This document shows positions 8,501-57,900 of a stretch of DNA of 64,000 nt, piece after piece. Every line of letters starts with the position of its first letter. Within the stretch, counting starts at the first letter, position 1. The stretch covers positions 2,728,001 through 2,792,000 of the forward strand of contig JAVTLE010000016.1 in NCBI GenBank assembly GCA_033439295.1, in the 5' to 3' direction. The notes beneath the pieces are model-generated. The model made no database searches. It was not told where the DNA came from and saw only the letters and a list, made by a program, of their open reading frames with translations. The position numbers and the translations under genes are program-made. The DNA comes from Deuterostichococcus epilithicus. Its lineage: Eukaryota > Chlorophyta > Trebouxiophyceae > Prasiolales > Stichococcaceae.

Positions 8501-11500
8501 GGTGCGGAGGAGATGATGGAGGAGGAAATTTTGCGCAAGCCAGACCTGGCGCAGGACAAGCTGCTCGCCCGGATGCGCCAGGTGCGAATTTGTAGTGTTT
8601 AGGGTTTCATCACATGTCTGTCTGCAGCTCCTGCTCATTCCGGAGCTGCGGTCGTTGCAGCTGCCGGCGACCGTCGCCAGGCCTCCTCCATGTCAGCAGG
8701 GAGTGCGCACCTAGACTCGCGCGTGAGGGGCCAGCATGGACAAGGGCTGCGTGCCCGGGCCTCGGGCGCCGGCGCTGCCGCGTCTGGGAAGCTGCCGGTG
8801 TGCACGGTGCACCTGGCGGCGCCTGCGCCTCCTGGCCAGACCCCAGAACCCTGGAACTCCAACCCTCGAAATGCGTCTGCAGCCTCAGGCGTGGATTCAT
8901 GACTCCGCAGGTGGAGGGGCGCATCCGCCACAAGGAGTTTGCGGCGACATTCGACGCGCAGCTGGGCGCGGCCAAGCGGCAGGCGAGCGAGGCGTCCGAC
9001 AAGGAGGCGAAGCGCCTGGCTTTCTACATATTCTGGAATGTGAAGCGCGACTTCGACCGGTGCGCTGCGGATCGGTCATGGTGCATGTTGCAGGCGGCTT
9101 GCTCGGCGGCTGTTCGCCTGCGCCTGTGGCGTGCCTGTGGCGACAGCGCAGGGCGGCAGAGCACGGCAACTCCAGCGCATGCCAACACAAACAAAGGCTG
9201 ATAATCACAGGGCCCTGGGATTGACACGACTCAGGAGCCCTGGCAGATGTCGGCCGCTCGACGCTGTGTCAGCAAGTTGGGGTGCCCTCTGCCGCACTCC
9301 CTGGTGTCGGAAACTCTTCAGGGTTTCTGCTACCTTTCAGTTGTTCGCAAATTGCTGGCTGAGTGCAGGAACTACCTGGTGCGACATGCATGGCCCGGCT
9401 CCTGCCGGGAAGGAGGGCGCTGCCAATGTGCTGCCTGCAAGCAAACTATCACTTTGTGAGCGCTGATGCGTTTTTGCTGCTGCAGCCCATCACAAATCTG
9501 AGGCCAACTCTCTGCATCAACGAGACCCAAACAATCGGCCTTAAGTCGACATCATCAGCGTCCAATGCGAGCTCCCCACTCGCTGAGTAAACCCTGCGCC
9601 CCAATACCCGCAGGAACTATCTGGTGCCGGAGGACTTCCTGGGCTTCCTGCCGGAGAGGAAGGCGCGCGCGGCGTTTGGCTACATGGACGACAACGGCTC
9701 GGGGCGCGTCGGCCAGGGGGAGCTGCTCAACGCCGTGGTGCAGATCTTCAGGTGCCCCTGCTCCCCCTGCCCCCTTTCCAGGCCCCGCCTGAACGCCGTG
9801 GTGCAGACCTTCAGGTGCCCCCACTGCCCCCGCCCCCTTCCCGGGCCCTGCCTGAACGCCGTGGTGCAGANCTTCAGGTGGCCCCGCTCCCCCCGCCCGC
9901 TTCCCAGACCCTGCCCGAGGCCGGCGGCACGAGGCAGCAGCCCCCGCGCATGCAGATGCGCGGGCAGTGAGGGCCGAGGCGCGGGCGGCTAGGGTCCTGC
10001 AGGCGCTGGCTCAGCTGCACTTTGCGTCTCCTGGAACCCCCCTGCAGCAGGCGGACGAGGAGAGATGGCGCCCTGGTTGCGGCCACCACACCTGGGCCGG
10101 GGGGCTCCACGGGTGGCGGGCTGTTGCAGAGCACCTTTGGGGTGCCTGCTCGCAGCGTCGCTCGGCGCACAGGCTCAGCCGGTCGCCTGCCCCCGTGCGT
10201 GCAGGGACCGGCGCAACCTCGCGGTGGCGCTGAAGGACACGCGCTCGGTGATCGGCACGCTGCAGACGGTGCTGGGCATCATCATCCACATCTTCTTCTT
10301 CTTCATGTACCTCCTGGTCCTGCAGGTGCGCTGTGTGAAACTCTGAAACCGAAAGTGCCGGTGTGATGAGGGGGGGTTCAGGGGCACACACCGAGCGCCG
10401 CGGGGGCCGGGTGTCGGGCGTCGTCACACACCTGCGTCTTCGTGCGCCTCCGGTGCAGCACGTGTGTGTCTCTGGTGCCGGCGGCGGCGCTCTGAAACCC
10501 TACCCGCGGCGCAGTCCGCCTGTCCCTCCGCCTGCCGTCGGCATGTTTGCAGGTTCAGGGCCGCAAGCTGATGGCCCTGAACCGTGACCGAGCGTCCGAT
10601 CCATGAGCACCCCTTGCTGCGCGCCGGTACACGGGCCTGCAGTCAACCGTCCGCTGGTCACGCTCTGTCCTGAGGCCAGACCACCTCATCAATGCGCATC
10701 TGAGTAGCACGTGTACCTGCCGCTGCACGCAGTCTGCGCTGATGACGTGTGGATCGCTGTCAGCAGCGGGCCGCCAACCTTCTCAATCTCGGCACCCTTG
10801 AACTCGGTTTAGAACGAAGCATGCCTGGTGCCAACCGCGACAAATGATCTCGCCTGCGCTGCCGCGCAGTTCTCGCTGGACAACATGTGGATCACCATCT
10901 CCAGCGGCGTGCTGGGCTTCAGCTTCGTCTTCGGCAACAGCATCCGCACCGTCTTTGAGTCGGTGCTCACCCTGTTCGTCATCCACCCCTTTGATGTCGG
11001 CGACACCATCTACATTGACGGCGCCTACTGCGTCATAGAGGAGGCCTCCCTCAACAAGGCGCGCAAATAGAGATTGCCGTTCAGGTTGGAAGAGTCCGTT
11101 TCTTGTTGAACACATGTGCACAGGTGTGAGGAAGGCAATTGTGACGTCGTGTGTTCCACCTGTGGCGAGTGTCGCAGCGATGGACCAGCTGCCGCTGTGA
11201 CGCCTGCGGCAGGGCAGGTGGTTGCCAAGCCGTGGGCGCCTGCATGCATGTGCACAGACCTCAGGACTCGGAACTCAGAGGATGTAAACTGTGAGTCGCG
11301 CTCCAGCGACAGGTGGCAATGAAGCGGTGGGACGGCGCCCGCATGTGAGACAGGCCTCAGAACCGAGACACACAGGGTTGATGTTTGTGTTTCTCTCCGG
11401 CGACAGATGGCCATGGAGCGGTGGGACGGCGCTTGCATGTGATACAGGCTCCAGAATCGGAAAGACCAGACTTGAACTATTCGTGTCGCTCCGGCGACAG

Positions 11501-13255
11501 GTGGTCATGAAGCGGTGGGACGGCGCCCGCATATGGTACCCCAACGAGATGATGAACACGGTGGCCATCACCAACGTCACCCGCACAGACACCCGCTGCC
11601 AGTGGTTCAAGGTGCGGCGGGCCGACATGGCTTGTCGATGCACGCTCCGCCCCTGTATGCGCAGCAGTCCAAGGAGACTTTGCTGCGCGAGCGCCTGCTG
11701 CTGGCCAGTGACGCCCAGTGCGTGCCATGCGGGCGAGGTCGGGGTGGATAGCAGAGGCAGGCTGCACAGAGGGTCCAGGATGGGCGTGCTTGGGGGCCTG
11801 ACAGGCGATCAGGAGCGCGGCATCGGCCATCGGTACAGCGGTGATGAACAGGATGCCGGTAAAACGGAGACAGTGCAGCAGTGCGAGGAAGGGGTGCGGT
11901 GTCGACGAGAAGACACGAGAACAAAACAGAGATCTGAAGCCCGCATCGTCCGTCGCAGGTACTGGTGGACACCGACACGCCCGGCGAGGTGTGCACCGCG
12001 CTGAAGGAGATTCTGGACCCCTGGTTCGAGGCGCGCTCCACGGAGCTGAAGCCCGACCCGACGGTCGCCTTTTTCGGCCCCAGCACCGACCCCATGAAGG
12101 TGACTGTTTCTTGGGGGCTCGATATCTCGTAACTGCGCTGTATCTCGTTGTGCATCATGTATGTGTTGTCTTGTTGTGTCGTATTGTGCGCAGCTGTTGG
12201 TGGCGCCCTGGTGCAGCATCCCCGGGCCAGAGCGATGCAGCAGCAGCTCCGTACCACAAGCCCTCAGCGAGTCTGCGCACCAGACCCTGGATCCCTGTTT
12301 TCGCGCGCAGGTGTACCTGGCTGTCTACTTCAACTTCAACTTCAACGGTGAGGCCAGCACCTTGAGGATGGCACTGTTGTTGTGCAGGATCGCTCAGGGT
12401 TGTGTGCACATGCGAAGGTTGTGGGGGCCCCATGTACTGCGAGCGGCTCGCCTGCCGTGTCCATCACCTGGCAGCATCTGCCACGGACTTCCTTGTCACA
12501 AACGCCCCTTCAAGCCCTCCGAGGTGTGGGCGTGCATTTGATATCGCTTTGTGCCCTACGTGTGGCGTGCCGACGCCTTGAGATCCGCATCTGCAGCCTT
12601 CGAGGACGGCGATCGGGCAGGCCCTACCCGGCACGACCTGTTCATGCTGGTGGGTGCCACTCCCGTTCGATTGCGTCTTGTCTCGCAGCATAACCTCGAA
12701 CCTCACAGACGGCTGCCTGGAGGCTTCGTGTTGCGCCTTGATTGGTGGGCCAAACACCGCCTCCGGCGGTGCACACAGATGCCTAAAGGAGCTGGGGTTA
12801 TGGAGTCACGAATCGGGTTGCAAGTCCATGACACACACAAAGGCGGAACTGCTGTGTGCCTCGCAGGTGGCGGAGACGCTCGTGGAGCTTGGCGTCAAGT
12901 ACACCCTGGTGCGTTCCTCAAGGTTTAGGGTTTAGGGCCCTTTGTTCTGGGGTTGCGCCGCCCGCGACGTCTCACTCGGGCGACTGCAGCCTGCTCACCG
13001 ATTAGGTTGAAGCGCTCTGCATGTTGCACACAGCACAATGCAGCGAATTAATGGTGCGGCTGATGAACAGACCATTGACAGCCGGGCTGCCAATGTGCAT
13101 ACATATCCTACATGTCGATGCACACTATCGTCCAATGATCTTACGCATGTCGTCTGCTGCAGCCCAACTTTGGGCGACCGCATGCGCTGGAGACAGCGAC
13201 CACAGAGCGCCGGTCCATGCTGCAGAAGCTGCCGGCCATGCGGTCGCACGGCTAA
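2528..13255 (+). CDS. MSL: MscS/MSL-type mechanosensitive ion channel with an EF-hand, about 24 exons
   Basis: This membrane channel opens on membrane tension; fission yeast Msy1/Msy2 are relatives that also carry an EF-hand. Confident exons are 5166-5309 (first membrane helix), 5485-5646, 5980-6096, 6446-6568, 6852-6976, 7234-7332, 8911-9059, 9614-9751, 10205-10325, 10870-11058, 11501-11611, 11959-12099, 12311-12347, 12597-12649, 12867-12908 and 13163-13255 (stop TAA). Family marks include IERN-like VIEWNFFENRRVLYY, FHKQAFFDKMQETLKQ, the pore-helix run GFSFVFGNSIRTVFES and HPFDVGDTIYIDG. Exon 9614-9751 encodes a 12-residue EF-hand loop, DDNGSGRVGQGE, suggesting Ca2+ control. The acidic, Ser/Pro-rich N-terminal exons (about 2528-4710) and the linker at 7531-7871 and 8160-8580 are less certain. 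The start could be ATG 2528 or ATG 3073. Two introns (after 6568 and 11058) need GC donors. Exon-edge duplications surround several exons. Confidence 0.85.
4982..5200 (+). repeat. Repeated exon start encoding an LSDxEIEELxE motif in the channel gene
   Basis: The exon start at 5166 (LSDSEIEELEE) is preceded by a diverged copy at 4982 (LSDREIEELDE), each just after a CAG. The spacing is 184 bases. The upstream copy may be a separate exon or a decayed duplicate; only the downstream copy leads into the first membrane helix. Confidence 0.5.
9369..9420 (+). repeat. Decayed copy of the start of the EF-hand exon
   Basis: Following an AG at 9367-9368, the sequence matches the start of exon 9614-9751, including its acceptor (GGAACTACCTGGTGC against GGAACTATCTGGTGC, then a shared CTCCTGCCGGGA-like stretch). 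The copy lies 245 bases upstream in the intron and no longer encodes the EF-hand. Confidence 0.65.
9725..9892 (+). repeat. 63-base tandem repeat, three copies, spanning the donor of the EF-hand exon
   Basis: CGCCGTGGTGCAGA recurs at 9731, 9794 and 9857, exactly 63 bases apart, each followed by a CTTCAGGTG-type donor (GTGCCC in the first two, GTGGCC in the third). The first copy is the true end of exon 9614-9751; the other two lie in the intron. Because 63 is 21 codons, the frame stays open through all copies. The third contains an N at 9871, so copy number in the assembly may not be exact. Confidence 0.85.
11218..11545 (+). repeat. 94-95 base tandem repeat, four copies, ending at a real exon start in the channel gene
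   Basis: Copies begin after CAG at 11218, 11313, 11407 and 11501. Each starts like GTGGTCATGAAGCGGTGGGA, with divergence increasing upstream. Only the last continues into the channel sequence (ARIWYPNEMM). Each unit carries its own acceptor, often as GCGACAG, so four candidate acceptors sit in tandem. Confidence 0.85.
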
Positions 13256-14337: not shown

Positions 14338-19391
<5,054 letters not shown>

Positions 19392-19836
19392 GATTAGTGC
19401 TTGTTTTGTGCTCGTCCTGTGATGTGCTCGTCCTGTGATGTGCGAGTTTTCGAAGTGGGCAGCCCTTGCTGCAAATGTTAGGTCAAAGCCCTTTGCAATA
19501 CTCATGTTGGGCATGTCGAATCTTCACGCCCGCTTTGAAGCTGTCGCAAACACCTTCGAGGTTTGAGGTGGAACAGGCACTTGCGCTACGGGGACAGAGT
19601 GCCTTTAACAGACACCTTTATGCTGTTCTAGACCTTAAGCGGTTTCTGCTGCCGAAGGACAGCCTTTTGCATGCCACATTCAAGCTGGCCAAAGTTAGCA
19701 CTGCCATTTGCTGCTACAATCCGGAGATGCTGATGTCTAGTGGTCTATAGTTCTCCTGACGGAACAGCTGCGGATGACAATCTGGCGGAGTCTTGGCACG
19801 TATCCAATGACGACAGGATCAACGCCACAGATGTAC
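19392..19836. other. Convergent 3' flanks of PDS and DCP2
   Basis: These 445 bases between two convergent stop codons presumably hold both 3' untranslated regions. A 16-base direct repeat (GTGCTCGTCCTGTGAT, twice) lies at about 19409-19440 just after the PDS stop. No gene is seen. Confidence 0.6.
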
Positions 19837-22800
19837 TCAGACCAGGATGTATCGCAAGATGGCGGCGCGGTCGAAGCGGAAGCCCGTTAGGGCTGCACTT
19901 GTATACACGCCATCTGCACCCACTGACATTTGAGTTGCAGGCACATGCCCTGGCACAGCCAGCGTTGCTGCGGGATCCGCCACCAGCTGTCCCAGCGATG
20001 TGGGTGCCGAGGCTGTGGCCATCGCCTGCGAGTCTAAGCCCGGCTGCAGCAGGGCTGCATCTGGGACGGAGGCCAGCGGGTCTGCGCCGGCTGCGAGTGC
20101 CGCCGCGATGGGCGTCGGCCGCGTGGCCGCCGCAGCGGACCATCCCTGCGTGTCAAGCAGCATATCAGTATCCGTGCTTCTCGAAGTCGTATGCACGCAC
20201 GGCTGCAGCCTGCGCCACCCGCAAAGTGGCGCTGTTGCGTTCGACTAGGAGTGCCAAACGCTACTGCCGCAACAGAGGTAGGCCTTTCCCCTCAAGCAAC
20301 TTGAGACTGCTTCGGTAAACGGTCAACACCCTGCCATCAGTACCAACCTGCAGGCCTGTGGCGCTCGAGGCGTGCGCCGCTGCTGCCGCGGTCGCCAGCA
20401 GCGCCGCCAGTGGCTGGCCGCTTGCGCCGGCCGCCGTGGCGTCCGATGCCGCTGTTGCCATGCCGGCAGGCGCCGCCTGCACCCCCGACTGCTGCACGGC
20501 CGCCTCCTGCTGCGGGGCAGGCGCTCCCTTGAGCGCCGCCGCTGCTGCTGCTGTTGCTGCTGCAGCAGCCGGCAGCTGTTTGCCTCCGCCACGAGCGCGC
20601 TTGCTGGCACGCGCCGCCCTGGCGGTGCCGCCGGCTGGCGCCTGCGTGCAACAGGCCAGCGCAGCTGCGTGAGCAGAGCAACTCCTGGAGCTCCCTGCGT
20701 GGTTGCCACACAGCAGCATGCACATATACGCGCGCCCACACGCCAGCTGACTGAGGCCGGGGTGTAGACTCCACCCAGCTGCATCCAGCCCCGCTCAGCC
20801 TCGATCTGAGAGAATCCTGCCTTCCGAAAAGCCTCAATTCCCTCGGAGCCTGCAGCAAGCAGTCCAGCTGACACACACCTGGGCGGCCGCGGCGGCGGCG
20901 ATGGCAGCAGCGCGGCGCTGGTGCGCCCGTATCCACCGCCGCAGCTGCCGCACATAATTCCAAACCATGAAGAACTTGTGGCGGCCGCCCGCATCGTTGG
21001 TGAATACCTGTGGCACAAACGCAGGTCGGTTCTAGGCAAACATGCTGGACGTTTGGTAACAGTGTTGCGCATCCAATCGGCGTGCCAGGTGGCGCGGTTG
21101 CCGGCCAGCGGTGGCATGGGCCGGGAGACAGCGTGCTGCAGGGCGGCTGCACATGCTGCAGCCCACAACGCGTCTTGCTCTGACTGCAGGCAGCTGGGTG
21201 GGTTGAGTTGTGCCGACGAGCACGCATGCCCGCGGCAGACCGGCACCTGGGAGTCCTGCTCTCGCGACGCCGGCAGGTGAGCGATTGTGTGCCAGGCCAA
21301 GGCGCTGATTTCCTGCGACGCATGTGTCCAGAGTTTTAACCCACAGGGCCAGACCAGAATCGCCTTGCTTTGCATGTGGCCGCGCTGCACAGGTGGGCAC
21401 TGACAGCTGGCTGCAGGCGCGGCCGCCATGCCGGCGGCCGGCTGACCCTAAACCCTGACCCGTGGGGTGGATGCAGGAGTCGAGCTGGGTCTGCCCAGCA
21501 GGGTGGTGCATTTAGGGTTTAGAGGTGCATGGCGGGAGCGAGTGCCCCGTCTCTGCGTGTCATGCGGACGAGCGCATTTCCGCTCGCGCGTGCAGAGCCC
21601 TGCCTGCGGGCGGCTGTCCGCATTTCAGGCAGGTCCTGGAGGCCGACCAGAGCAGCTGACAAAGTGAAAAGTACAAACTAAAAGGGGACCGCACCTTCCG
21701 CACTTGCGGCGCAAAGTGGGTGGCCTCATCCACGTCCGGCACTATGAACAGCCGGGTCCGCTTCTGCCCCAGGTGCACCTCTATGGAGTCCTCCTCCCGC
21801 AGCCGGCCGGTCAGGTCGAACCCGGTCTCCTCCTGCACCTGAGGTGTACAGGACAGACGCTCTCGGGTATGTGTGGTCTCCATGCATGGAGACCTCCTAG
21901 CGCAGCCGGCCGGTGCGAACCCCGCCTCCTCCTGCACCTGCCGCTGCCACAGCAGGCGCCGTCAAAACTAGAAGGTTTGTTGACGCCCTGCTGACGCCAT
22001 ATATATGGCGACTTCCATGGCGCAGCCGTCCGGATGAGAACACACCCTGTCTCCTTCACCCGCCAGGGGGAATTCGACTTGCGCCGCAAGGATCTGACGA
22101 GAGTGGCCGTGCCAGAAACGGGGCCGAAGGCCAGAGGCGCTGCCGCCAGGCGCCACAGCACCTCTTGGGCCGCAACGACCAGGCGCAAGCCAAGGCAGAC
22201 GATGGACTGCACCAACCTCCTTGGCAGGACAGTGCGTAATTTCTTCGCCGCACCCTGAAAACCTTAGACTCGCCTCGCGCTACATGCGCAGTAACTCTGT
22301 CTCCGCCTTGCAGACCTTGCTGCGGGGGAGCCACAGGCAACCATCAAGGTTACAAGGAGGAGAAACCATAAAAAACCCGGCACCTCGCGCTGCGCGCACT
22401 GCAAGTCAGTCTCGTCCTTCGCGATCTTGCCGCGGGGAAAGCCCCACGCGCCGCCGGCGCCCCACGACTTGACCAGCAGGCACTTGTCCAGCCCGGGGTT
22501 CAGCATGATGGCGCCCATCACTGGCACTGCCTGCGCCAGGCGCAAAGGCACGGCATGAGAGGCATGCTGTTCCTCCCAATGGCGGTGGATTTGATGAATG
22601 CGCCGCCCCATTGGCATGCGATGCTGGTGCCCTGCGGCAGCCGCCTGCGGCAAGCAGCACTGCACTGGCTGCGGTTGTGGCTGCTCCCTGCGATGAGCCA
22701 GTTGCAACTTCGCATGGACGGACCTGTCACCTGGAACTCCCCAAGAATGATGGGCCCTTCAGCATGTGCCCGGCAGGTGCCTCTTCGTGCAGCCAAGCAC

Positions 22801-23554
22801 TTTTGGCACATGCAAAGCATGCGAGCTGAGACCGAAAAGGACTGTGATTAGTCACTGAAGTTGCATGTTTATAATCGTTAAACTGCTCGTAGATGGTTTC
22901 CACTGCGCCCTGGTACTGCATGAGCCCGGGGCACTTCTGAAGAGACCCCAGGCGTTTTCAGGCCCTGAAACTGCAAAGCCCTGCCTGCTTGTAGTCGTTG
23001 AACTGCTTGTAGATGGCGTCCAGCGCGCCCGAGTACGGCCCGAGCCCGGGACATGTGCCAAAAATGAGCGTCGCAAAGCGCTTGAGCGACAGGCTGACCA
23101 GCTGCTCCTCGGGGTCCGCCTCCCGCGCAAAGTCCTGCGGTTGTTGCGCGGCAGGGTTGGGGGGGCTCCAATGTTTTGGAGCGGAGTCGTGGGGAGGGTG
23201 CGCGAGCGCATGGCCGTGAGCGCGCGCACTGGAGGCAAGTCGTCATGCCAACGGGCCTCAGAGCGTGTCCTTTACGTGCAGTGCATTAGAATGCGCCGGG
23301 CTCACCTCGTAGAACCAGTGCGCCTGCTCGATGAGGAACAGCAGCCGTTCGAAGGACCTGCAGTGAAGACCATGGCGGATGAGCAGCCGCAAGCGGCAAG
23401 GAGCATTGGTGTTGCATGCATCGGTGCACCGTTGACCAGACATGCAGGAGCACTGGTGCTGGAGCAATTTCACTCACGCCAACTCCTCCGGCGGGCTGTT
23501 CAAGATGAAGCGCGAGCACAGGTCATCTAGGAGCTCCTTGCTCGGCAGCGTCAT
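19837..23554 (-). CDS. DCP2: mRNA-decapping enzyme subunit 2 (Nudix hydrolase)
   Basis: DCP2 removes the m7G cap in 5'-3' mRNA decay in cytoplasmic P-bodies. Exons in gene order: 23554-23478 (start, LLDDLCSRFILNSPPEEL, Box A), 23357-23306 (LLFLIEQAHWFYE), 23134-22985, 22530-22384, 21838-21695, 21312-21247, 21007-20879, about 20849-20773, 20641-20348 and 20145-19837. The Nudix box GKIAKDE...REVQEETGF has the full G-x5-E-x7-RE-x2-EE-x-G pattern and is split by a phase-0 intron between RE and V. The next exons encode TRLFIVPDVDE-like and ISALAWHTIAHLP segments, as in Box B. The C-terminal tail is Ala-rich and ends GFRFDRAAILR, possibly a short interaction helix. The intron after 22985 needs a GC donor. 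Three exons have decayed edge copies nearby. Confidence 0.93.
21887..22063 (-). repeat. Two decayed copies of the start of the DCP2 Nudix exon
   Basis: The true exon starts at 21838 (VQEETGFDLTGRLREED). Copies start at 21937 (VQEEAGFAPAGCARR) and at about 22059 (VKETGCVLIRT), 99 and 122 bases further upstream in gene order. The middle copy keeps its CAG acceptor and an open frame up to the true acceptor; the furthest has lost the acceptor. Confidence 0.85.
22270..22450 (-). repeat. Copy of the end of the DCP2 exon carrying the first half of the Nudix box
   Basis: The exon end at 22384-22445, reading GKIAKDETDLQCAQRE, is echoed about 112 bases downstream in the intron at 22270-22333. The copy has the same CCCCGC(G/A)GCAAG start and ends GTAGCGCGAG followed by GCGAGT. 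The copy is diverged and has lost the GT donor. Confidence 0.75.
22876..23062 (-). repeat. Copy of the donor-side end of DCP2 exon 3
   Basis: The exon end (DAIYKQFNDYKQ, 22985-23060) is repeated 120 bases downstream at 22876-22940 as ETIYEQFNDYK. Shared + strand words include AACTGCTTGTAGATGG against AACTGCTCGTAGATGG. Confidence 0.85.
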
Positions 23555-24226: not shown

Positions 24227-27200
24227 ATGGCGCAGCCGCCTCTGGCGCCTGCCGGCGAAGCCGCGTCGCCACCCATCTACATGCAGCCGCTGCTGAATGG
24301 CTTAAACACCGTCGGTGCCAGCTATGTAACCGCGGACGACCGTGGCAGCCGCCTCATTATCGTGCACGGCGACGCCATCGAGCTGTGGCCCCTGGCCGGC
24401 GACACGCCACCGCAGGTATCGAATGCTTCCTCAAGCAGGTCGCTTGCGCTTGACACCGCCATCCATCTGCACACAACCAAGGAGTGTCAGCAGGCAGCTA
24501 TCAGGCGCTGCAAGCGACGACAGACCCTCTGAAGGCTTCAGTGCCTCTGGCTGCATTGATACCCACATGATTTGACCAGTGCCCAGGTGCATGGCGGCAG
24601 CCAGGCTACATGCGTCTGATTCAACCCAGATCGAATACATCCCCTCTGTGGCAAAGCCTCTTGGAGCGGCTGAAGCTTTTGGAGAGCTCGTGCAACTGCA
24701 GACGGTGGCGCTGCATGCCGGGCCGGTCGTGGCATCGGTGCGGGCGGCGCCAGACGGCACGCTGGCTGTGCAGCGATCCGCAGCCAATGTGGAGATTGTG
24801 GACCCCGTTTCGGGGCGCACCTTCGTCCAGGTAGGCACGTTTACCATTACGCGTGTGACTCGGCCTTTCCATTGGTGTGCCAGCAGGCAGTGGGGGCTAT
24901 GTTACCCAAACGAAAGAGCGGGGACCTGGCGTCAGGGCGCACCTTTGCACAGGCGCCAGTGAAAGCGCCAGTCAAAACTGCAGACGCTTGGCAGATGGAG
25001 CGGTGCACAATTGTGTGCATGCAGCTGTGAGGGGCCGGGCATCCGAGCCGTGCATCAGGCATAAAGCGCTGCGCTCGGTTGGGTGGCACGAAGCCGCAAA
25101 ATACGAGGAAGACAGCAGCACATTCGCCTGCACGCTGCGCTTTCCCTGCTGTGCCTCAGCCACCTTGAGGCCTGTTTGCGCGCCGACAAGACCATCTGCA
25201 TGTTTCCGCACAAGCAGGCAGCGCGGAGCCGGGCGCCACTGCGGGGCGTCTTCTGGACAGATTCAGCGGCAGGGGACCTGGCTCTCGTCACCTCTGCTGG
25301 CCTGGAGCTGTACAGGCAGGTTTTCAACTTGAATCCTTCTGTTTAAACTGAAGGAATGCATTCCATCAGTACGTAGAGCTGAAGTCTGTTGTTGGCAAGC
25401 GAGCTATGAGCATGCTGCCAGACGGCACCGCATCAGCAGCCTGGCGCTTGCTGGGACGTGGGGCGGTCTATTATCCATGCGAGCTGGCATCGAGGTGCGG
25501 TGTCGGATGTGCTGTGCTGCAGCCGTCGGGGCACGGCGGGGGGCCTGATGCATCTGGAGACGCGGCGGCATGACATCGCCTGGGCGGCATGGTCTGCCGA
25601 CACGCGCGTCATCCTGCTGGCCACCGGAGGCGCATGGCTTCAGGCAAGCTGCTGCTGGCAGTTCCTATGCACTGCAGAATGGAACACGCCCGGCGAGCTC
25701 TGTGCGTGGCTATGCTCGTGTCATTACGCTGCACCCCGCTTCACTCTGTCCTTGGGATGCCCCAGGGTTGCGACTGCCAGTTCCTGCTTGCCTAGCCTTT
25801 TAATTTAGCGCTGCGACGGCACTGGCATGCTATTGTGTATCACCCTGCTGCACGCCCGGGCCGGCCTTTAGATGCTGGCTGATGAATGCAGCATGTGAGT
25901 TGGATGCGACTGTCTGCCAGCTGCCAGCCCGGGCCATTCCAATCCCGCCGCATTCACGCCTCAATCCTCACTTTCCAGCCAATGCGGCTGCCCCTGCATC
26001 ATGAATGCACACCAAGTTTGTGCGAAGGTGCTAGTGAAGCTGCTGCCATTTCCGATGTGCCCGTCGTTCAGGCATATCAGGTTGGTGCGGAGGCGGTGGT
26101 CAAGCTGCCGCCATTCCAGCTGCCGGCTGCTGCAGCGCCCATCGCACCAGACTGTGTGGGCCTCATAGCTCTGTACGGCCGGGTGTACTGCTGGCACCAC
26201 GACCGGCCGGGGCGTCGCCTCACCCTGCACCGCTTCTTCAAGTGAGCACTGTCGACGTGGTGCCCTGGAGGCGGCAGGCCATTCAGCTTCTCTCACTGCT
26301 GCCAAGATGCACTGCTGCACGCGGTGTCTTCTGCACCGTAGGTGGGGGTGCTGTTGGCAAGTAACTAATTGAGTGGATGGCGTGGAAAGAAACCGAGTGA
26401 TCTTGCCAATTGCTGCGCCAGCACTTGGGACGCTCCTCCTACTACAAGATGGTGCCGCACCTGACTGTAACCTGCTGCTGACAAAGACCCAGCTTCTGAC
26501 GTAAACCCTGCTGACCACATAGTCACACAGGGATGCGGTGCCGCTGCAGCACACGTAGGCCGTCTATCCCGCTGCGGCGAGCTGCGCCAACGAAATCCTG
26601 CTGTCCGCGACACCCTGCCATGTAGACAGGACCGGACACAGAACCCTGCTGGTGCGGCGCAGAGACGCGGTGCTGCTGCGGCACACGTTGGCGGTCGCGC
26701 CCGCCGCCGGCGGCCTGCGCCTGGCGGTCGACGACAATGTGCTGCTGGTGTGCGACGTGGCCGCCGGCTCTGCAGGGGCTTTCGACGTGTGCGAGGATGC
26801 CCCGCCGGGGGAGCAGCTGCAGCCGCTGGCGACGCACCCAGTATTTGCGTCGCCCGACAGCCAGGTCTGAGCTTGCGGCGGGCGCTGCACCTTGCCAGTT
26901 CTGTCGGAATGTTTTCGAACAGGATTGCGCGGCGCATCTGCGCGGGCGCCTGCAGCTCGCCCTGCAGCTCAGTACTGCATCCGTGGCCCTCTCGGCAGCC
27001 GCCATGGAGAATCAGCCCACTTCCAGAGGATGGAAAACTGATGCCACCAAGTGGACATGCGAGGTTGGATGTGCCCGACAGGATGCGACGGCGTCGGAGT
27101 TCAGCTTGCACCCGCGAAACCTTGTGCTGGACCGGCCGCGCGGCGTTGTCGCACGGCTGCGTGTGCGGCCGGCGGCGCTCGCATCGGGCGCCAGCGGCGG

Positions 27201-28907: not shown

Positions 28908-29259
28908 CAATGCGGGCGCGGTGGCGGGTTCACTACCACCCGTCCCCTGCGGCAGTGACAGCCCCTGCGGCAGTGACAGCGACCTGAACGCAGCCGCAGC
29001 AGTCGCTGCCGGCGGCGCAGGACCACCTTTCAGACGATGAGTTACGCATGCTTCAACTCTTCTGGACTCGGTCGGCGTGCGTTACGTACTTCAGCATCAT
29101 TATGAGGTTTCAGAAGATGGAGATGGGGAAATAACGTTGGGACTATATACGCAGCCAAGACCAGTACACCTGTACCGGCAGATCCACTGATATTGTGCAG
29201 TTTCGCACCAACACGCATCCCTGCTGGACCTGCACGACGTCGAAGGTCCAACGCCGATC
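28908..29259. other. Intergenic region, RMC1-like gene to 2H phosphoesterase gene
   Basis: A short head-to-tail gap. It begins with an 18-base unit repeated twice (CCCCTGCGGCAGTGACAG, 28944-28979) and otherwise shows nothing recognisable. Confidence 0.5.
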
Positions 29260-39300: not shown

Positions 39301-41661
39301 ATGGCGTCTGAGTGCATCACTGTGGCCTCTGAGGGCATGTTGTGGCCTCTGAGTGCATACTTCCTGTGGCCCTGCAGACGGCAGGCGAGCTCGTTGACAG
39401 CCTGCCAGCGTCACTCCAAGCATGGCAGCCAGCCGCCGCTGCGATGTGAAGGCGGGTCTGCTTTTAGCGCCGCTGGCTCATGACCGGCCCACACACCAAG
39501 GCCCACATGGGGCCGGCTCAAGATTTGGCACACATATGCATGGCCCCAGAAGCCGATCGCGATTGAGCCATCACCCTTGCAGCAGCACTCATGCAGCGGC
39601 AGCGCCGCGGCGACAATCCCGAGAACATCAAGACGAGTCCATCTGAGAGCGCGCAGATCGAGGTCAATCCATCCGTTTCAGGCCAGCGCAGCACCTGCAG
39701 CAGCAGCGCGGCGACGATGCGGGAGCGGGCGGCCAGCGGGTACAGCAGCTCGATCAGCTCGCGCGCCCACACGCGGCAGCGCGCATCCCCGGGCTCCTCC
39801 ACCACCGCGCCCAGCAGCCGCACCTGCTTGACGATGCTATTCCTGAGTTCACAAGTCCCGAAACCTGGAATCGTATGTCCTGAAACTACTGGCCGAAGGA
39901 GCAGTCTGCACACCATCGCGTCCGGCACCCGCACCTGTCCCCCCGGTGCAGCGGTGCAACAGCGCAGGAGTCACCGCTGAAGCCATGTGCTGGTGCATCG
40001 GTCGGTTCGTGCAGGTTTGGTTCACAGCCCGAGCCCAGACCGCTCCGCCGAAGCGGCCAGCAGCCGCGAATACATCCCGGCCTTCGACCCGGCGACACCA
40101 GCGCATGAGAGCCCGTCCGAATCTCAGCCAGCTCAGCACCGCCACACCCACCACAGCGAGTGGGTGTGGCCTGAGGCGAGCGGCTGTGACGCCGTGAGCG
40201 CCCCAAGGAGTCCGCGGCAGCAGCAGAGGTGTGATGTCACCCGTGGATACGTTTGCAGAATCCAGGCGCTGGCAGGGGTGTGCTCCACCCACCAGCGAGT
40301 GGATGCCGCCGGAGGCGAACAGCTCTGACGCCGAGTGCCCTGAGGAGTCCGCGGCCGCAAGCGCGTACAGCGCCTTGAGCACATCGTCCAGCGCAATGGG
40401 CACATGGCGAGCCGCGCCCGCCTGGAGGATGGCGCACAGCGCCGGCACCGCGCCCGCCTTCACGGCCGCTGCCCTGCGGCAGCAGAGGGTGGGTCGAGGG
40501 ACACCCGGCTAGGGCCGCAAGTGCTGAGCCTCCGAGGCCGAGGGGGCGCCTGCAGGCCCCTCGGCGCGCGCCGCCAGCGCCTGGAAGGCCGCCGCCCCGC
40601 GGCATGGAAGCGCGGGCGATACGAGGAATGCAACACCATCAAGGCACGGCTGTGGGGCTTATTCCCTTGGGGCTTTGACTGGCAGGGAGCGTTGCCTCAA
40701 CACCATGCCGCAGGGTCTGGGGCACCAACATGACGATTGCATTGACACCGGGAAGGAAACATCTGTGCATGGGTGAGTGCACGCAGCCGCACCCAGATGG
40801 GCCAAACAGCACCTGGTATGTATCGGTTGCCTCGAGGCAGAACAACCAGAGGGCATGCAGTGCATGCGCAGACAGACCCCGCAGAATCGAACAAGAGACC
40901 GCCAGGTTCTAGCTGCCCCGCGCACAGACAGGTGGCCACCGACCTGTTAGCCGGATTGTTGCGTGCCAGCATGGTGAGAGCCTCCACCGCCGGCGACATG
41001 CGCGCCGCGCCCGTGCCCTCTGCCCAAGCGTCGTTGCTACCTGCCTTCTGCTGCCTGCCGGCGCTGCCGCCATTGCTGTCGCCGCCCGCGATGGCGGCCC
41101 TATCCCCGTTGCCACTGTCATGCACAGGACCTTCGGAGCCACCATTGTCATGATCTGCAGCGCCTGGCCTGCTGTCTGCGCTGCCGCCACCAGCGGCGCC
41201 GCCGCCGCGGTGGCGGGGCAGCCGCGGCGGCAGCGCAACATCGAGCAGCTTGACCAGCAGCGGGAAGCCGCCAGCCTCACGGAAGGCAGCCTGGAGCGGC
41301 AGGAACATGGACGCATTGCGCGCCAGGCCCTGCAGCGCCTTAAGCCCCTGTAGCTGTTGCGACTCTCCATCGGCCTGCGGGCAGACAGCAGGGACTTGGC
41401 GATCGTCTAAGCAGCCTTCGCCGATGGTGGTGGCCGGACTGCCCGAGAGTGTTTTGCACCGCTGGTCGCCTGTGCTGCTTCGGGAGGCGGCAGCAGCAAT
41501 GAGTCACAAGCTTGCATGTTTGCGCTTCCTTGCAGCGAGCTTGCATAGCTGCACGCTGCACAAGAACAGTGCGACTGCAATCATACCTGAATGTCCTTCA
41601 GGATGGTGGCCAGCATGGCCTGCACGCCCTGAGCCACCATTTCGTCATGCTGCCGCGCCAT
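33302..41661 (-). CDS. Armadillo-repeat and BTB-domain protein
   Basis: A long multi-exon minus-strand gene. ARM-type helical exons come first: 41661-41587 (possible first exon, MARQHDEMVAQGVQAML), 41347-40944, 40473-40293, 39842-39695, 39286-39226, 38976-38891, 38578-38408, 37752-37599 and 37179-36965. Next are 36804-36652, ending DLGDITFVVDG, and 36427-36333, reading EVVTGRAAIAAASPVVAAAL. Together these give the start of a BTB fold. Later exons are about 36160-36070, from 35584 (DQVVDLWLLAAHLRLAG), 34668-34523 (LAEAALLHVGRNLAALHADG, BACK-like), 34071-33924 and 33620-33302 (Ser/Pro-rich tail, stop). The ARM-then-BTB order matches plant ARIA/ABAP1-type proteins, thought to act as nuclear adaptors, some with ubiquitin ligases. 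That role is an inference. The 5' end and the exon order between 36330 and 34670 are uncertain. An N lies at 37031. Confidence 0.7.
34615..34807 (-). repeat. Copy of the start of the BACK-like exon of the ARM/BTB gene
   Basis: The exon starting at 34668 (ERLAEAALLHVGRNLAAL) has a copy starting at 34807 (ESLAVAVLLRTDRNLSTL), 139 bases upstream in gene order and also preceded by a CAG acceptor. The copy is open for at least 25 codons, so use as an additional or alternative exon is possible. Confidence 0.75.
37550..37573. repeat. GT dinucleotide microsatellite
   Basis: About eleven GT units lie in an intron of the ARM/BTB gene (CA on the coding strand). Confidence 0.9.
37679..37875 (-). repeat. 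Copy of the start of an ARM exon
   Basis: The exon at 37752-37599 (acceptor side) is matched by 37797-37870, 117 bases upstream in gene order. Shared + strand words are AGCAGCCCGCGCACCACGCC against GGCAGCCCGCACACGTGCCC, then AGCTGCCGGCATCCCTCTGC against AGCTGCCGGCTCCCTCCTGC. Confidence 0.8.
38303..38465 (-). repeat. Copy of the end of an ARM exon
   Basis: The exon end in 38420-38465 (RDLAALVHIALLASHAQ) is echoed 117 bases downstream in gene order at 38303-38345 (CDLVEPWATLPSLPPTS). The + strand words TGGGAGGCGAGCAGGGCAAT and TGGGAGGCAGGGAGGGCAGT show it at nucleotide level. Confidence 0.75.
40147..40365 (-). repeat. Copy of the end of an ARM exon
   Basis: The exon end at 40293-40365 is repeated at about 40147-40225. 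Both copies carry CACCCACCA...GCGAGTGG, a GAGGCGA(A/G)C(A/G)GCT run and AGGAGTCCGCGGC. The spacing is about 140 bases. The copy keeps no clean donor. Confidence 0.8.
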
Positions 41662-42792: not shown

Positions 42793-45700
42793 ATGTTCAA
42801 AAAGAAGGGCGATGTGGTGCTGGCCCCGAGCCAACTCGTGTCGGGCGCCGACCGCAAGCGCCTTGCGCGGCGCGCTGCTGATGCCTTCAGGCTGGAACCC
42901 GAGGCGGCAGCGGAGCTGCTTCCTCCCAAAGCGCAGCTGGCGCTTGCGCGCTTTTCGCCACCCAGCCGCGCAGGCGCGCCTCCTCTTGCTGGCGATCATA
43001 TCGTTGTGCTGCAGACCATTGGCAGGATGTGTCACCCGCCTTCATTGCCTGCCATGGCATAGACACTTGCATCCGCTGCCACTCGTGGCATGTGCGCGTC
43101 CAGGTGCACCCGAAAGCAGATACGTGAATTCAATCTCTCTGCACTTACAAACGCGCAGCACTGTATACCCTGGACGGCGAGCCCTGGCTGCTGGACGCAC
43201 GGGCGGGTCGGCCAGACGACCTCGTGCCGACGGTGCTGGCGCTCTGGCTGCTGCCGGGTCTGCTTCCTTCAGTGCCCCTGCGCCACGCCGCCGTCTCGCA
43301 CTTCCTGATCAGTAAGTCCCCTAGATTATCGAGCCGCGTTGGTTGCCGCCTGCCTTGCTGCAGTCACGCCGGATCTCTGCCGTTTATGGGGACCATGCCT
43401 GCGCCCGGCGCGCCACTGACGCCTTTCTTGCTGCCTGTCTAAACCTGCCCTCTGAGGCGACTTCCGGGCCATTAAGAGCAAAGGAACTTTCAACAGAAAC
43501 CTTCCTTGGTGCAGATGGAGCGGACCTCATGCTACCGGGGGTAAACCCGGAGACGCTTCCGCAGCTGCCCGCCGGTCGCATGGTCAGCATCTGCGTGCCG
43601 GGCAACCCGGCGCCCCTTGCAGTGAGCTTTTCCTGCTGTCAATGCCTTTCTGTGTCCAGCCCCACGGTCGCCCCACGCTTCAGGGTTACACAGGAAGCAT
43701 GAGACCCAATGAGCGAAAGAAGAGACCCCCACCCTGCCACGCACATGGAACACCCGTGCAAGCAGTGCATGAAGCGCCAGATGCGCAATCGCAGATGCAC
43801 CAAACATCGTGACATGGTTTTGTCACGTGCACACCCAGGTTGGGCGCACGCTGCTGAGCACGGAGCAGATGCGCGGCGGCGGCAAGGGCCGCTGCGTGGA
43901 GCTGCTCCACGCTTTTGGCGACATGCTGTGGGCGCTGTCGCCGACCAAAGCGGCGCCCAATGAGGGCTTCTCTTTGGATGGCGTGCTACCTGTCAACGCG
44001 GGGGACGTTGATGCCGAAGAAGCGCCTGCAATGCCCGAGGCGGCTAGCGCTGCAGCGGCGACCGCAGGTGCATGCCGCTGTGACTCTACAAGCTCACACA
44101 GCACTGCGGGCCGACAAGTCTCCCAGGCGTGAGACGACATCGCACAACACATTGCGTTGGTCTTGCTTGCTGAGCGCTTGCAGTGTGCATCATGAGCGCG
44201 GGTAGCCCACTGATATGCAGTAAGGGCGGTGCAGGCCGAGCCGTGGGCTCTAAAACCTAAACCCTGCGCCTGTAGGAAGTTCAGCGCTGAGCGAGCAGCT
44301 GGCGCAGCTGCGGCTCAGCCCAGTGAACGGAGGCGGCACACACGACGTCGAGGCGCCAGGCGCAGCGGGCTCAGCAGAAAGCGCCGTCGGCAGCGCCAGC
44401 GGCGGCGGCGATCACGCTGATGGTGACGCCGGAGCGGCGACGCCGCAGCAGGGCGGGCTGCAGGAAGCGGCTGCGCTTCCGATGCCGCCGGCGGAGATGG
44501 ATGCATTATTGCAGGTGCGTCTGCAAACTGCCCATTCTAGAGCGTTGCCGGCTTGACCGCAAAAAGATGTCTTGCATGTGCCATGAGCCGGCGGCAGTGC
44601 ATCTCTGCAGGGGGCGGTGCTGACGCAGCTTGAGCAGGCTCAGCTGCAGCACACTGCCGATGTCAAGGAGTCAGAGCTTCAGCTTCAGCAGACCGGCATC
44701 TGCCGGTTATGGGCGCTATGCGAGCACCTGCCCCCCTGCTGCCACACGGGTGTGTTCACACGGCAACCCGTCCTTGCTGCAGGAGTCCCTGCTGCAGGCG
44801 CTGCACAGGCTGCCCGACAAGCAGCTGCCGATGGCCAGCGGCGTGTTGTGGCACTCGCATGTGCTGCCGGCGCGGCGCACGGGCGTGCACCTCGACCTGA
44901 AGGGTTCCACCCACAAGAAGCTGTCCAGGCTCCTCCAGGTGAGTTGAGGTTTAGGGGTTTAGGGCTGCACCTCAGTCCCAACAGCCTGCCGCCAGAGCAC
45001 CTGTGTGCGCATGCCATGGCATCATGTCAGGTGACGTCGAGGGCTCCACTCACAATCTGTCGCTGCAGGGTGGGGTCTGGCTTCCTCCGATTCCTGCGAA
45101 ATGATCTGGGGCAACCCTTCCTAGCCCCGGCAAGCAAGCTGGTGCAGGCGGCTGGGTGGTGTGTAGGCCTGAATGGTGCAGGAGACGATGCAAGGATATC
45201 TGTGCTGTATTGCCCTGCCATGCCAAGCCTGCTTCCGACTGATGGGGGACCTACCTCCACGCTTGCGCTGCGCCAGACTGAGGGCACGACACGGCACTTT
45301 TGCATTGCCGCAGGCCCGTGGCCAGGCAGGGTTCAGGGATTAGGCGACGACAAGCCCCTGACGAAGAGGCGCTCACGCGGCGCGTGTTGTCATGTCTTGT
45401 CTCTGATTGCCGCAGGCCCATGGCCAGGCGGGCAGCCGGCTGCTGACCCTGCGCGACGACAAGGCCTCCGGCGAGGTCGTGCTTGTGCACGTCGACCGCC
45501 GGCACCCGCTGTACCGAGGCCACGCCCGGTGGGCCGAGGAAGAGGCGGCGGGGGCGGCAGGCCCGGCAGCAGGCAGTGGCGGCGGCAGCGGTGCGCCTCC
45601 CGCCAGCTCTGCAAGCGCCTGCTGACCGCTGCGCCTCCTGCCGCGGGTCCCTGGCAAGGGCCTCGAATGCTGTCGCCTGCACCACTGCCAGATACTGACC

Positions 45701-53683: not shown

Positions 53684-54607
53684 CTATCGGCCGAGCCAGT
53701 TGTTGATCTTTGTGGTCACTTTCGTCTCGTCCGCGCCCTGCCAGCAGACAAGAGCACTCGCCCACTTTGTGAAGCTGGTTCGATCCTCGGAGCTGCTGCA
53801 GTCATGCCCGAGCTTGGCAGCGCCACTACGACGGGCACAGCCCCGCAGCACCAGGACGGCAAGCCTCCCAACAAGCCAGGCCTCGTCTTCCAACGGCGGC
53901 CGTCCCTCTCACCCGTTCGCGGGCATAGCAGGCCCAGAAGGCGTGGTGCTCCTCCCTGCAACACCAGCCCAGGAAGGTGCACGAGCGGAAGCAGTCCACC
54001 AGCGCCTCTGCAAGGGCACACACACAAGATGTAAACGGAACTTACGGGGATGTTGGGCCTTCTGTTGCAGCTCCAGCCCAGGAAGCTGCAGGAGTAGAAG
54101 CAGTCTATCAGCGCCTCTGCAAACGCGCATGCGCGACTTTTTCGAGCTTTTGGGGTTATAGGGCTGGCGCATCGCGCCAGCCGTGCATCCCAGCCCTGAC
54201 TCAGACTTGCAATGTGCGACCGCGAGGCCCGCAATATGCATGCTGCCACGGCGCCTCCGAATGACTCGCATGGTCATTCGGATGTGCCACTCTGTTGCCG
54301 TCCAGATACAAATGTAACGGTCGTATTCGTAGCACACGAGAGGCACGCCTTGCGCACTGGATCAGAAGGCACGGTGGTGTGCGCCACAACATGGGGAACA
54401 AAATGCACATTGAGGTTGGGCGCCGCATCAGATGCGTAGCACCTGGATCTGGGCATATGGGACGGCGGATCACTCACTGTGATGCTCCACGCAAGCTTCC
54501 AGCGCCTCTTCCTTGCTCTTTGTCGGATTGCTGGGCGACAGAACAGCACTTGCCGAAACAGGCGCAACGCTGCGAGCTTCGCCGTCCGGCACGGGCTGCC
54601 TGGACAT
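53684..54607 (-). CDS. Twin-CX9C mitochondrial protein (CHCH type)
   Basis: Three exons close in frame to 92 residues: 54607-54478, 54007-53913, 53737-53684 (stop TAG). The second exon completes a twin CX9C layout across the splice junction: C-VEHHKALVD-C and C-REEHHAFWA-C, each with exactly nine residues between cysteines. Such proteins are imported into the mitochondrial intermembrane space by Mia40, and many (CMC1, CMC2, COX19, COX23) help assemble cytochrome oxidase. I cannot tell which member this is. ATG 54607 (MSRQPVPDGEA) gives the closed frame; an in-frame ATG at 54652 is an alternative start. A near copy of the second exon, with its own splice sites, lies at 54116-54046. It shares a divergent promoter region with NDUFAF5. 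Confidence 0.72.
54046..54116 (-). other. Candidate mutually exclusive exon of the twin-CX9C gene
   Basis: This 71-base block starts after TTTGCAG and ends before a consensus GTAAGT donor. It encodes KALIDCFYSCSFLGWSCNRR after the first exon, closely matching KALVDCFRSCTFLGWCCREE of the known second exon. Both blocks have length 2 modulo 3 and fit the same phases, so either alone keeps the reading frame and both together break it. Only 38 bases separate this donor from the next acceptor, probably too few to splice. The copy keeps the first CX9C pair but lacks the second. Confidence 0.6.
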
Positions 54608-54909: not shown

Positions 54910-57900
54910 ATGCTCTTTCTGCGCTTGCCAGGCTATCTGGCCGGTGCATCGCCCGCCAGTAATGTGCTGAGGGCCGTCTCCTCGTTGCAGCCAGCCGCCG
55001 CTGCTAGCGCCGTTGCGGACTGGCCGCTGTGCACGGGCACCGCCTTGCAATTGGTACAGCTTAGCAGCCTCTGCGGACCAGCTTCTGGTCGCGCTGATCG
55101 TGCCAACGCAGGTGGTCGTCAAACACAGCCAGGCTTTCAAGCCGCTGTGAAGCCAGATGCGGCAGTGAAGTCACACCGCAGCAGTGGCATTTGTCGGGGC
55201 TTTGCCGCCATTGCGGCCCCGGACTCCGCAGCATCCGAGATCTTCGACAGGCAAGTGAGCGTCATTGTGAACGCTGCCAGCAAGGCGCCCGCAATTACAA
55301 TGCAAGCGACTAGGTTGTGTATTCCTGACAAGACGACACTGTAGGAGTGCGACGTCTAATGCACCGTCGTTGCAGGGACCTGAAGCGGAGACACCGTGAC
55401 CGCGCAGCGCGCCTGCAGTCGCCAGAAGACCCTGTCCTGGTGTGCAACCAGTAGGCAGTCCTTGAGATGTGCGCAGGCCTAGTGCGCCGGTTCGTGCTCT
55501 TGACACCAGGGGCAGCTCCCGCGGCGCAGCATGCTGCGATCAGACTCCCAAACTTGACACAATCGAAGAAAGAATTGCTGTCGTGCAGGAGGCGGTGGCG
55601 GAGGGTTTAGTGGACAGACTGGACGACTGCAAACGCACCTTCCCGGTGGCTGCCGTGATCAATGGCGCAGGTGCTGCCGTGTTCGTGCTGCTCGTCGTCT
55701 GTGACTGCTGCGCTGCTCGCCAGCATTTCATGCCTGCAATCAGGCGACGAGGTCAGCGGACGCTTGCGGCAGCGGAGCTGAATCATCCCTTGGATTGCTC
55801 ATCTTGTGCAAATGTCAGACGGCAGCAATGCAAGTGCAGGCGCTAATGTCGTGCGCCGGCTGGCGGGCGGGCGCGCCGGCATTGGCGAGGTCCTGCTGCT
55901 GGACACCTCTTCGCAGATGCTGGCCCGTGCACAGCGACAGGAGGTGTGTTTTCGAGTGACTTACACTCAGCCCTATCTGCGCAGCGCGGCTCTGCAGTGC
56001 AGCAGTGCTGCAAGGTCACAATGTGCACCAAAAGGTCGTAGAAAATGCAGGTCACATTGCAGATTGCTCAACCAAGAATGCACATTGTTGTCCAGCACAG
56101 GCTTGGAGCCAGGCAGTGCTGTGAGATTGCAAGCTGACAGCCATGTCTCGTGCCTGGCGTAGGAACTGCTTCGACAGTCTGACCCTGATGCCAAGCTGCC
56201 AAAGGTCAGTCACAACTTGAACTGTGTCAATTCGTGAGCAAACATTCAGCACGCCGAACCAACCTTTCCGAAATGCACATATGCTGGCAGAAACAGGATT
56301 TGTTGTAGCAACAGGTCCAATTTGCAGTTCACGCACTGTTCAGCAGTGACCATCTGTTTCCCGTCTGCTGCAGATCCGCTACATCCAGGCAGACGAGGAG
56401 GCCCTGCCACTGCAGCAGCACAGCGTTGACGGTGAGGCTACGCACAGAATGCTGCTCATCTGCAGACCCCATTCGCTTCGCAGGGTGAACGACCCTCCAC
56501 TCTGGCTACCTGATGATGCTGAACTGTGCTAGTTCTGCTGCAGTGATCATCTGTCCGCTGGGGCTGCACTGGGTCAACGATCTGCCGGTAGGTTGCCTGC
56601 CACACTCCCGCTCGTCGAGCACACTCTCGCAGCACCCTCAAACTGAGTCGACGCTCTCGCTCTTTCACACTGCGCATTTGGAGTCTCCACGGGAGCAGCC
56701 TTCCGTAACTTGGCGGGGCACTTCAGCAATTGTGCCCGCGCTGTAAACCGGACGGACAGTGAACCGCGCGCTCTGCAGCACGGACGGTCCGCAGAACAGT
56801 TCCCCGCCCTGAAGGCTCCTGGCGGGGAGCTACTTGCGGTCCGACAGCCCCGCCTGCAAGGGCGTCCTAGAGAACTTTGGCAGAGGGAACATGCGCACAG
56901 CGCGACATGATGAGGGGGGAGGGGGGGATCTGTATGCCACTGGCCGCTGCGGGCGCGCGCGCTCGAGATGGTCGTGCTTGTGCCACGTCTAGTAGGCCTA
57001 CAACGCTGGGCCACATCACCAGCGGCGCATCTCCAACTCCCTGGCGACTGCGCTCAGCCAAGGGGCCGGGTACCATCGTGGAGGTGGCACGGTCGCCGCC
57101 GGCTGTGCAAGCAGCAGTCCCTGAACCTGGGACCCTTGCCAACGTCGCAGGGGGCGCTGACGCAGTGCCGCAGAGCGCTCAAGCCGGACGGGCTGCTGCT
57201 GGGCGCACTGCTCGGCGGCGACAGCCTGCAGGTGCGACTGACACTGGATATTGATCGTATGGGGTTGGAAGCTGGGAGAATGTCATCTCCAGATGAGGGA
57301 CACATATCGTGGGTCCAGGCTGCATGGCGGCGTGCTGCTGGAGGCTCGAGTCAGATTTGCACGGCAGTGTGCGGTGCCACCTTGCAAGAAACTGGCACCG
57401 GCTTGCCGCCGCTGCCCCATCTTTGGGGCCGACCCTCTGACCTCGGACATACACGCCCAGCTGTGTCAGGAGCTGCGCATATCGTGCGCCCTGTCGTAAC
57501 AACGAGTTTGACCCTCTGACCTCTGTCATAACGCCCTTGTGTCGCAGGAGCTGCGCATAGCGTGCGCCTTGGCGGAGCAAGAACTGGAGGGCGGCGTCTC
57601 CCCGCGCATATCTCCCCTTGCGCAGGTGGGTTAGGGTTTAGGTTCCTGCACTGCAAAGCGTGCAGCGTCTGCTGCGCCGCATCCATCCTGCGATCCGTTT
57701 GCGTGACAAGCTGTGCGCCATCAAGTCACGACGTTCACATGCGACCTGGAGCTGGTCACCCACGAGAAGGCTCAGCGCAGCTGCTGGCGCAGTGCAGAGT
57801 TGCCTTGAACTGTGTCGCGTCCGTGGTGTGCCCAGGTGCGCGATGCAGGCAACCTGCTGACTCGCGCCGGGCTCAATATCCCGGCGGTCGATGTCGACGA

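Follow-up and report, generated by a model that had tools for sequence, protein, structure and literature searches.

Introns in a 64,000-nucleotide stretch of the green alga Deuterostichococcus epilithicus (assembly GCA_033439295.1, contig JAVTLE010000016.1, positions 2,728,001 to 2,792,000, forward strand; the window) carry half-decayed, same-strand copies of the edges of their neighbouring exons, in unrelated genes and at a frequency far above chance. These introns have probably grown by ordinary local tandem duplication, with the edge copies representing the old events that can still be read. Tandem duplication at an exon-intron structure is of a known kind; what is unusual is its density, 22 loci in 64 kb. 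(Coordinates below are positions in the window.)

Investigation of these copies relied on a gene finder that was written for and trained on the window itself, and that was blind to repeats. Its final output contains 11 models with 155 exons (median 103 bases) and 144 introns (median 247 bases) having GT-AG splice sites. A screen for ungapped direct repeats at lags of 40-299 with a score of at least 14 returned 30 pairs, as opposed to 2 and 0 in equal-sized controls at lags of 2000-2259 and 10000-10259. Inverted pairs at this score number 2, both at one place, the exon-intron border at 50655-50730 (centre about 50690) within a Vps62-like gene. In 23 of the 30 direct pairs, as judged with uncorrected gene models, exon lies predominantly on one side only, while 5000 circular shifts average 11.7 such pairs (standard deviation 3.0; P 0.0002); the corresponding count with another gene model is 22 of 30 (P 0.0016). 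Alignment of each exon edge with its own intron yields z of at least 4 at 17 of 287 edges and of at least 6 at 13, while the reverse-complemented intron yields 3 and 0. With a second alignment design, z reaches at least 4 at 17 of 281 edges, versus 2 for the reverse complement and 1 for the reversed intron. When the strong edges are removed, the mean z of the 263 that are left is 0.095 (standard error 0.061), compared with -0.062 (reverse complement) and -0.397 (reversed); because this shift is only slight, hidden edge copies should be modest in number. The 17 edges among the 287 correspond to 14 of the curated loci described below (E5 twice) together with two uncurated donor edges, in the introns 10326-10869 (z 4.8) and 37180-37598 (z 4.2). 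Thus, the screen, the edge alignments, and the circular shifts all bear out what an earlier examination of the letters alone (the sequence-only reading) had proposed, that exon edges are repeated in the adjoining introns.

The 30 pairs collapse into 21 loci, to which the weaker E9 was added, giving 22 curated loci (Table 1). These are distributed among the seven genes that the sequence-only reading had listed with a count of about 16 cases: five are in a gene for an MscS-type channel, three in DCP2, three in an RMC1-like gene, eight in ARM/BTB, and one each in eIF2D, a twin-CX9C gene, and an NDUFAF5-like gene. The weakest are E15 and E18, each with a score of 14.5; E20 matches at 25 of 27 bases, yet its z is just 2.0 and 2.7 in the edge alignments. 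Spacings had been given as 63-245 bases, mostly 94-143, and this holds: nearest-copy lags run from 63 to 245, and 17 of the 22 fall within 94-140. Multiples of three are not preferred, as the lags modulo three divide into 9, 5, and 9 of 23. A second copy is present at E2, E4, E5, and E14, and a weaker one at E16; the spacing is even at E4 (63/63), E5 (94/94), and E14 (117/116), and uneven at E2 and E16. It had also been taken as a sign of selection that the exon is always the last copy on the acceptor side and the first on the donor side. This order carries no information, however, being a geometric necessity, because the copy in question is the one that adjoins the rest of the exon.

Tests of how the loci are distributed over genes and exons used 21 of the 22, since E21 lies outside the gene models. 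ARM/BTB has 8 loci where 2.9 are expected (P 0.005); heterogeneity across all the genes is not significant (P 0.098). Arm repeats in the protein were considered as the source of the ARM/BTB spacings and rejected, because other genes share the same lags. The absence of copies from PDS, which had been offered as evidence that the phenomenon is not universal, amounts to 0 of 24 edges and is not significant (P(0) = 0.165). The 18 copy-bearing introns are longer than the other 126 (median 427.5 versus 240, P 5e-5), with the caveat that a long intron also offers more room for a match.

The copies have decayed as unused sequence would. Pair identities are 72-95%, not near-identity, and mismatches occur at 39 of 198 first, 43 of 200 second, and 57 of 196 third codon positions (0.197, 0.215, and 0.291). 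(This tally sums 18 of 21 rows, leaving aside E5, E5b, and E21, for which the phase is unknown; it has no entries for E6, E9b, E14, and E15, and it counts E17 and E2b even though they are slightly off register.) Because mismatches are almost as common at the first two codon positions as at the third, the copies appear to decay neutrally rather than to serve as second coding exons; the pattern is close to what near-neutral decay of the copy would give, with some synonymous drift on the exon side. It is therefore very unlikely that they are alternative or mutually exclusive parts of exons kept by selection, and as coding alternatives they were rejected on these mismatches. Such a role would fit the presence, in 13 of the 16 acceptor-side copies, of an AG no more than 3 bases from where one is expected, as well as the frames that stay open in some copies, with E4, E16, and E17 capable of yielding in-frame, stop-free extensions. 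It is contradicted, in addition, by 3 in-frame stops among the 190 copy codons, by a GT within 3 bases in just 4 of 10 donor-side copies, and by lags that are not multiples of three. The copies are best described as pseudo-edges, some of which, to judge by their motifs, could act as cryptic splice sites. The earlier proposal that the process supplies spare splice sites consequently stands as a potential only, given these AG and GT frequencies and the lack of a three-base preference.

How such copies might arise can be outlined as follows. Repeated local tandem duplication of segments of about 60-145 bases (a few longer) would lengthen introns. A segment straddling an exon-intron edge would give the intron an additional exon edge; splicing that used the copy adjoining the uninterrupted exon, the site predicted from the sequence, would leave the protein unchanged, and the unused copy would turn intronic and decay at the neutral rate. 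In a wholly intronic duplication, both copies would decay and the pair would fade sooner, whereas an edge-straddling duplication would stay readable because one of its copies is still exon under selection. Most of the events are modelled as old, with about 0.2-0.3 substitutions per neutral site per copy, and tandem duplication is the presumed origin also of the loci beyond the three that retain full units.

If duplication is general, then intron-only duplications of the same size are expected, mostly too decayed to be seen singly. As expected, faint intron-only pairs at lags of 60-145 number 52, 25, and 9 at scores of at least 9, 10, and 11, versus 20.3, 6.0, and 1.9 in shuffled sequence. (Pairs were sought within single introns using hand-corrected labels, after the full-unit loci and the exon copies had been masked, and were compared with 24 block shuffles.) The excess is smaller at lags of 200-349, with 18 and 7 pairs versus 10.2 and 2.75. 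This test, the weightiest of those made, favours general duplication, with the exon edges as its readable remainder. The sequence-only reading had envisaged a general process that lengthens introns. That part is upheld within the window: the excess of faint intron-only duplications at matching spacings supports a common process, and copy-bearing introns are longer; exon edges, on the other hand, need not be its target.

The alternative that deserves the most attention is a copying process specific to exon edges, which would carry the exon plus the core splice site into the adjoining intron, for example by templated repair or an RNA-linked route. It had been said that the copies include the splice site and some intron; in most loci, however, the match can be followed only as far as the splice site, with little intron shared, which is what edge-specific copying would give. 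Anchored alignment of the intron side, performed for 21 loci, finds clear similarity at E4, E5, and E22, which are full-length head-to-tail units, and moderate similarity at E13 (11.6), E20 (10.0), and E21 (10.5), relative to a control 99th percentile of 9.0. When the 19 loci without full units are pooled, the mean intron-side score is 2.62, compared with 1.45 (standard deviation 0.40) for permuted partners (P 0.0046). Simulated duplications with 0.22-0.3 substitutions per site plus indels reproduce the loss of intron-side similarity. The residual similarity, the three full-length units, the three evenly spaced arrays, and the faint intron-only excess at the same lags all argue against edge-specific copying, and as the sole cause it was rejected on the residual similarity together with that excess. 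As an explanation for the loci it is unlikely, although several observations favour it and also count against tandem duplication. Fifteen of the 21 loci are without clear similarity in the intron side alone. In a locus-matched simulation of plain tandem duplication with uniform ages, the observed intron halves are too dissimilar (Fisher's combined P 0.0002 at an indel ratio of 0.1 and 0.005 at 0.2; 21 of the 22 loci, E3 being dropped for too few accepted runs, and Stouffer's statistic being undefined because one P equals 1). Four exons have copies on both sides where 0.93 are expected (P 0.004), so the copy events are clustered. At lags of 40-299 and a score of at least 14 there are 28 exon-intron and 2 intron-intron pairs, the latter within E5 and E22, and no separate clear intron-only pair in the window, a count in which the labels were hand-corrected after the repeats had been seen, thereby favouring the exon-intron class. 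(The corrections included the E9b exon start, the twin-CX9C exon, E5, and E8; the circular-shift test used uncorrected labels.) Finally, in a model of random duplication at a steady rate, 55-59% of detectable pairs straddle an edge; given that prediction and the 28 and 2 pairs counted, a steady rate plus ascertainment was rejected as a sufficient account. With ages fixed at 0.25-0.35, the modelled straddling share rises to 0.70-0.95. The scarcity of clear intron-only pairs and the excessive divergence of the intron halves together indicate duplications that either date mostly from long ago or show a partial bias to edges. In these models, a mostly old episode would fit better than a steady rate, with an extra bias to exon edges possible; such an age distribution eases both strains, but it needs recent events to have been few. 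A more far-reaching version of tandem duplication, rather unlikely as it stands, would have it operate lineage-wide, perhaps as an ancient burst partly drawn to edges, and build much of the intron length, so that introns would be stacks of decayed copies, both of exon edges and of their own sequence, in which inherited acceptors would form a reservoir of cryptic splice sites.

The two accounts that are left have far less in their favour. In the Rogers model, introns are born when an exon segment containing AGGT is duplicated. This invokes the same mutational step, tandem duplication within a gene, but it predicts a one-unit intron whose beginning duplicates the exon downstream, whereas most of the copies lie 63-245 bases from the edge in longer, apparently pre-existing introns (the 18 with a median of 427.5); we regard it as highly improbable here. 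That the copies reflect an assembly artefact or chance is scarcely credible: the window contains 8 scattered N's, but the identities of 72-95% and the far lower far-lag, inverted, and circular-shift controls speak against it.

Short tandem repeats of period 8-18, at 19407-19443, 28944-28980, 63679-63711, 31751-31775, and 6125-6150, match at 100%; by comparison with the 60-145-base duplications, this class looks much younger. At lags of 15-39 and a score of at least 14, all 7 pairs are intron-intron or intergenic.

Table 1. Curated loci at which an exon edge is copied in the adjoining intron (positions in the window; z from edge alignments)
Locus	Gene	Copy or array	Strand	Exon edge and lag	Identity and remarks
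E1	MscS-type	12..45	+	acceptor side; about 125-158; lag 113	29/34; near window end, exon start uncertain
E2	MscS-type	4978..5014	+	acceptor side; 5162-5198; lag 184	30/37; z 8.5
E2, second copy	MscS-type	4884-4903	+	lag 288	19/20
E3	MscS-type	9365..9382	+	acceptor side; 9610-9627; lag 245	17/18; z 8.0
E4	MscS-type	9726..9918	+	donor side; three 63-base tandem units	113/130 at lag 63; exon 9614-9751 ends in first unit; TRF 3.0 copies; intron side shared
E5	MscS-type	11292..11573	+	acceptor side; three 94-base tandem units	intron side shared; real exon starts in last unit, start placed by eye (misplaced by gene finder)
E6	DCP2	21886..21940	-	acceptor side; 21783-21841; lags 103 and 99 (small indel)	z 11.4
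E7	DCP2	22273..22327	-	donor side; 22383-22437; lag 110	40/55; z 9.9
E8	DCP2	22862..22933	-	donor side; 22982-23053; lag 120	56/72
E9	RMC1-like	24915..24953	+	donor side; 24793-24831; lag 122	72% over 39; z 4.0, 5.9
E9b	RMC1-like	26007..26050	+	acceptor side; 26072-26115; lag 65	34/44; exon start hand-moved to 26072, frame open from there into modelled exon
E10	RMC1-like	26528..26575	+	acceptor side; 26660-26707; lag 132	38/48; z 11.5
E11	ARM/BTB	34404..34436	-	donor side; 34523-34555; lag 119	26/33; z 8.4
E12	ARM/BTB	34779..34806	-	acceptor side; 34639-34666; lag 140; exon as E11	24/28; z 6.5
E13	ARM/BTB	37788..37873	-	acceptor side; 37670-37755; lag 118	two segments; z 5.3; weak intron-side match
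E14	ARM/BTB	38192..38331	-	donor side; 38420-38448; copies 38303-38331 (lag 117) and 38192-38211 (lag 233)	z 9.8
E15	ARM/BTB	39592..39613	-	donor side; 39696-39717; lag 104	19/22; z 3.6; weak
E16	ARM/BTB	39911..39937	-	acceptor side; 39800-39826; lag 111	23/27
E16, weaker second copy	ARM/BTB	40034-40067	-	lag 246	74% over 34
E17	ARM/BTB	40154..40222	-	donor side; 40293-40359; lags 139 and 137	34/41 and 23/27; z 15.4
E18	ARM/BTB	40578..40604	-	acceptor side; 40455-40481; lag 123; exon as E17	22/27; z 1.6, 3.0; weak
E20	eIF2D	45304..45330	+	acceptor side; 45406-45432; lag 102	25/27
E21	twin-CX9C	54066..54122	-	acceptor side; 53957-54013; lag 109	49/57; gene missed by gene finder, reading frame visible; name from sequence-only reading
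E22	NDUFAF5-like	57431..57502	+	acceptor side; 57510-57580; lags 79 and 78	19/21 and 40/50; z 11.5; nearly full tandem unit, intron side shared

The window has a GC content of about 0.58-0.67 in 2-kb steps. Among nine predicted proteins scanned, Pfam recognizes a mechanosensitive channel domain, DCP2 box A and NUDIX, an Arm repeat, the eIF2D winged helix and SUI1, PsaE, Vps62, a methyltransferase, and MIF; the match of the RlmA zinc ribbon is below the cut-off, and no BTB match is found. The RMC1-like model, which is in two pieces, has no Pfam match. The names PDS, RMC1-like, BTB, twin-CX9C, and NDUFAF5 are provisional, being those of the sequence-only reading or our own. The PsaE exons (48848-49598) lie directly downstream of eIF2D and were fused to it by the gene finder; the two are likely separate genes. 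A PsaE gene that is rich in introns and of nuclear type points to a photosynthetic eukaryote. A similar fusion joined the NDUFAF5-like gene to the MIF-type tautomerase domain that follows it at 58883-60521. In DCP2, the donor of the exon that is copied at E8 appears to be GC (CAG/GCAGGG, 22979-22985, minus strand), to judge by how the protein is expected to be joined. Relatives of the DCP2 and Vps62-like proteins were not found in viral contigs; a comparison of DCP2 with genome contigs gave 8 bacterial loci, whose matches lie within or close to the region of the Nudix motif and were not used.

The lengthening of introns is less documented than their origin, and edge copies offer dated fossils of it, since one copy is under selection and stays readable after intron-only duplications have faded. 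Should the density in the window prove typical of the whole genome, intron-lengthening duplications could be measured directly for rate, size, and age, and one source of cryptic splice sites would be accounted for. There is also a warning for gene finders: the one used here was itself misled, calling the E8 copy an exon and using the first E5 unit as the start of a gene.

No report of dense exon-edge copies in algal introns was found in a literature search whose coverage left out most subscription journals, and the available part of the Coccomyxa genome paper does not mention them. Comparison with known systems places the copies among duplications within genes. Like introner elements (PMC9860276), they would reflect one process recurring across many genes of a genome; however, introners are one family at many sites, while here each copy matches its own exon alone. 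Pairs with a score of at least 14 number 2, 0, and 3 at the far lags sampled within the window (2000-2259, 10000-10259, and 3000-3519; not every lag), and because such matches are at background, introner-type sequence shared across genes was not seen there. In Drosophila (PMC2891723), novel introns have been attributed to tandem duplication or intron sliding, the former being assigned 5 of 31 near intron pairs. There, as here, part of a duplicated exon turns into intron and then decays away, but the Drosophila cases are new intron positions recognized by cross-species comparison. The work of Hellsten, as described in PMC4974935, likewise involves tandem duplication in a gene with the protein kept by splicing; its geometry differs, in that an exonic unit gives rise to a new intron. 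The potato RdRp gene (PMC4974935) provides a close parallel, since a local tandem duplication took in existing intron-exon structure; a further tandem duplication, of 83 bases and within the first intron of the same gene, left the structure unchanged. The duplicated potato unit spans intron, acceptor, and the beginning of the exon and thereby inherits the splice signals, as would also be the case in the window. The potato case is one recent event that produced a new intron, whereas the window would hold many old events, apparently in introns that already existed.

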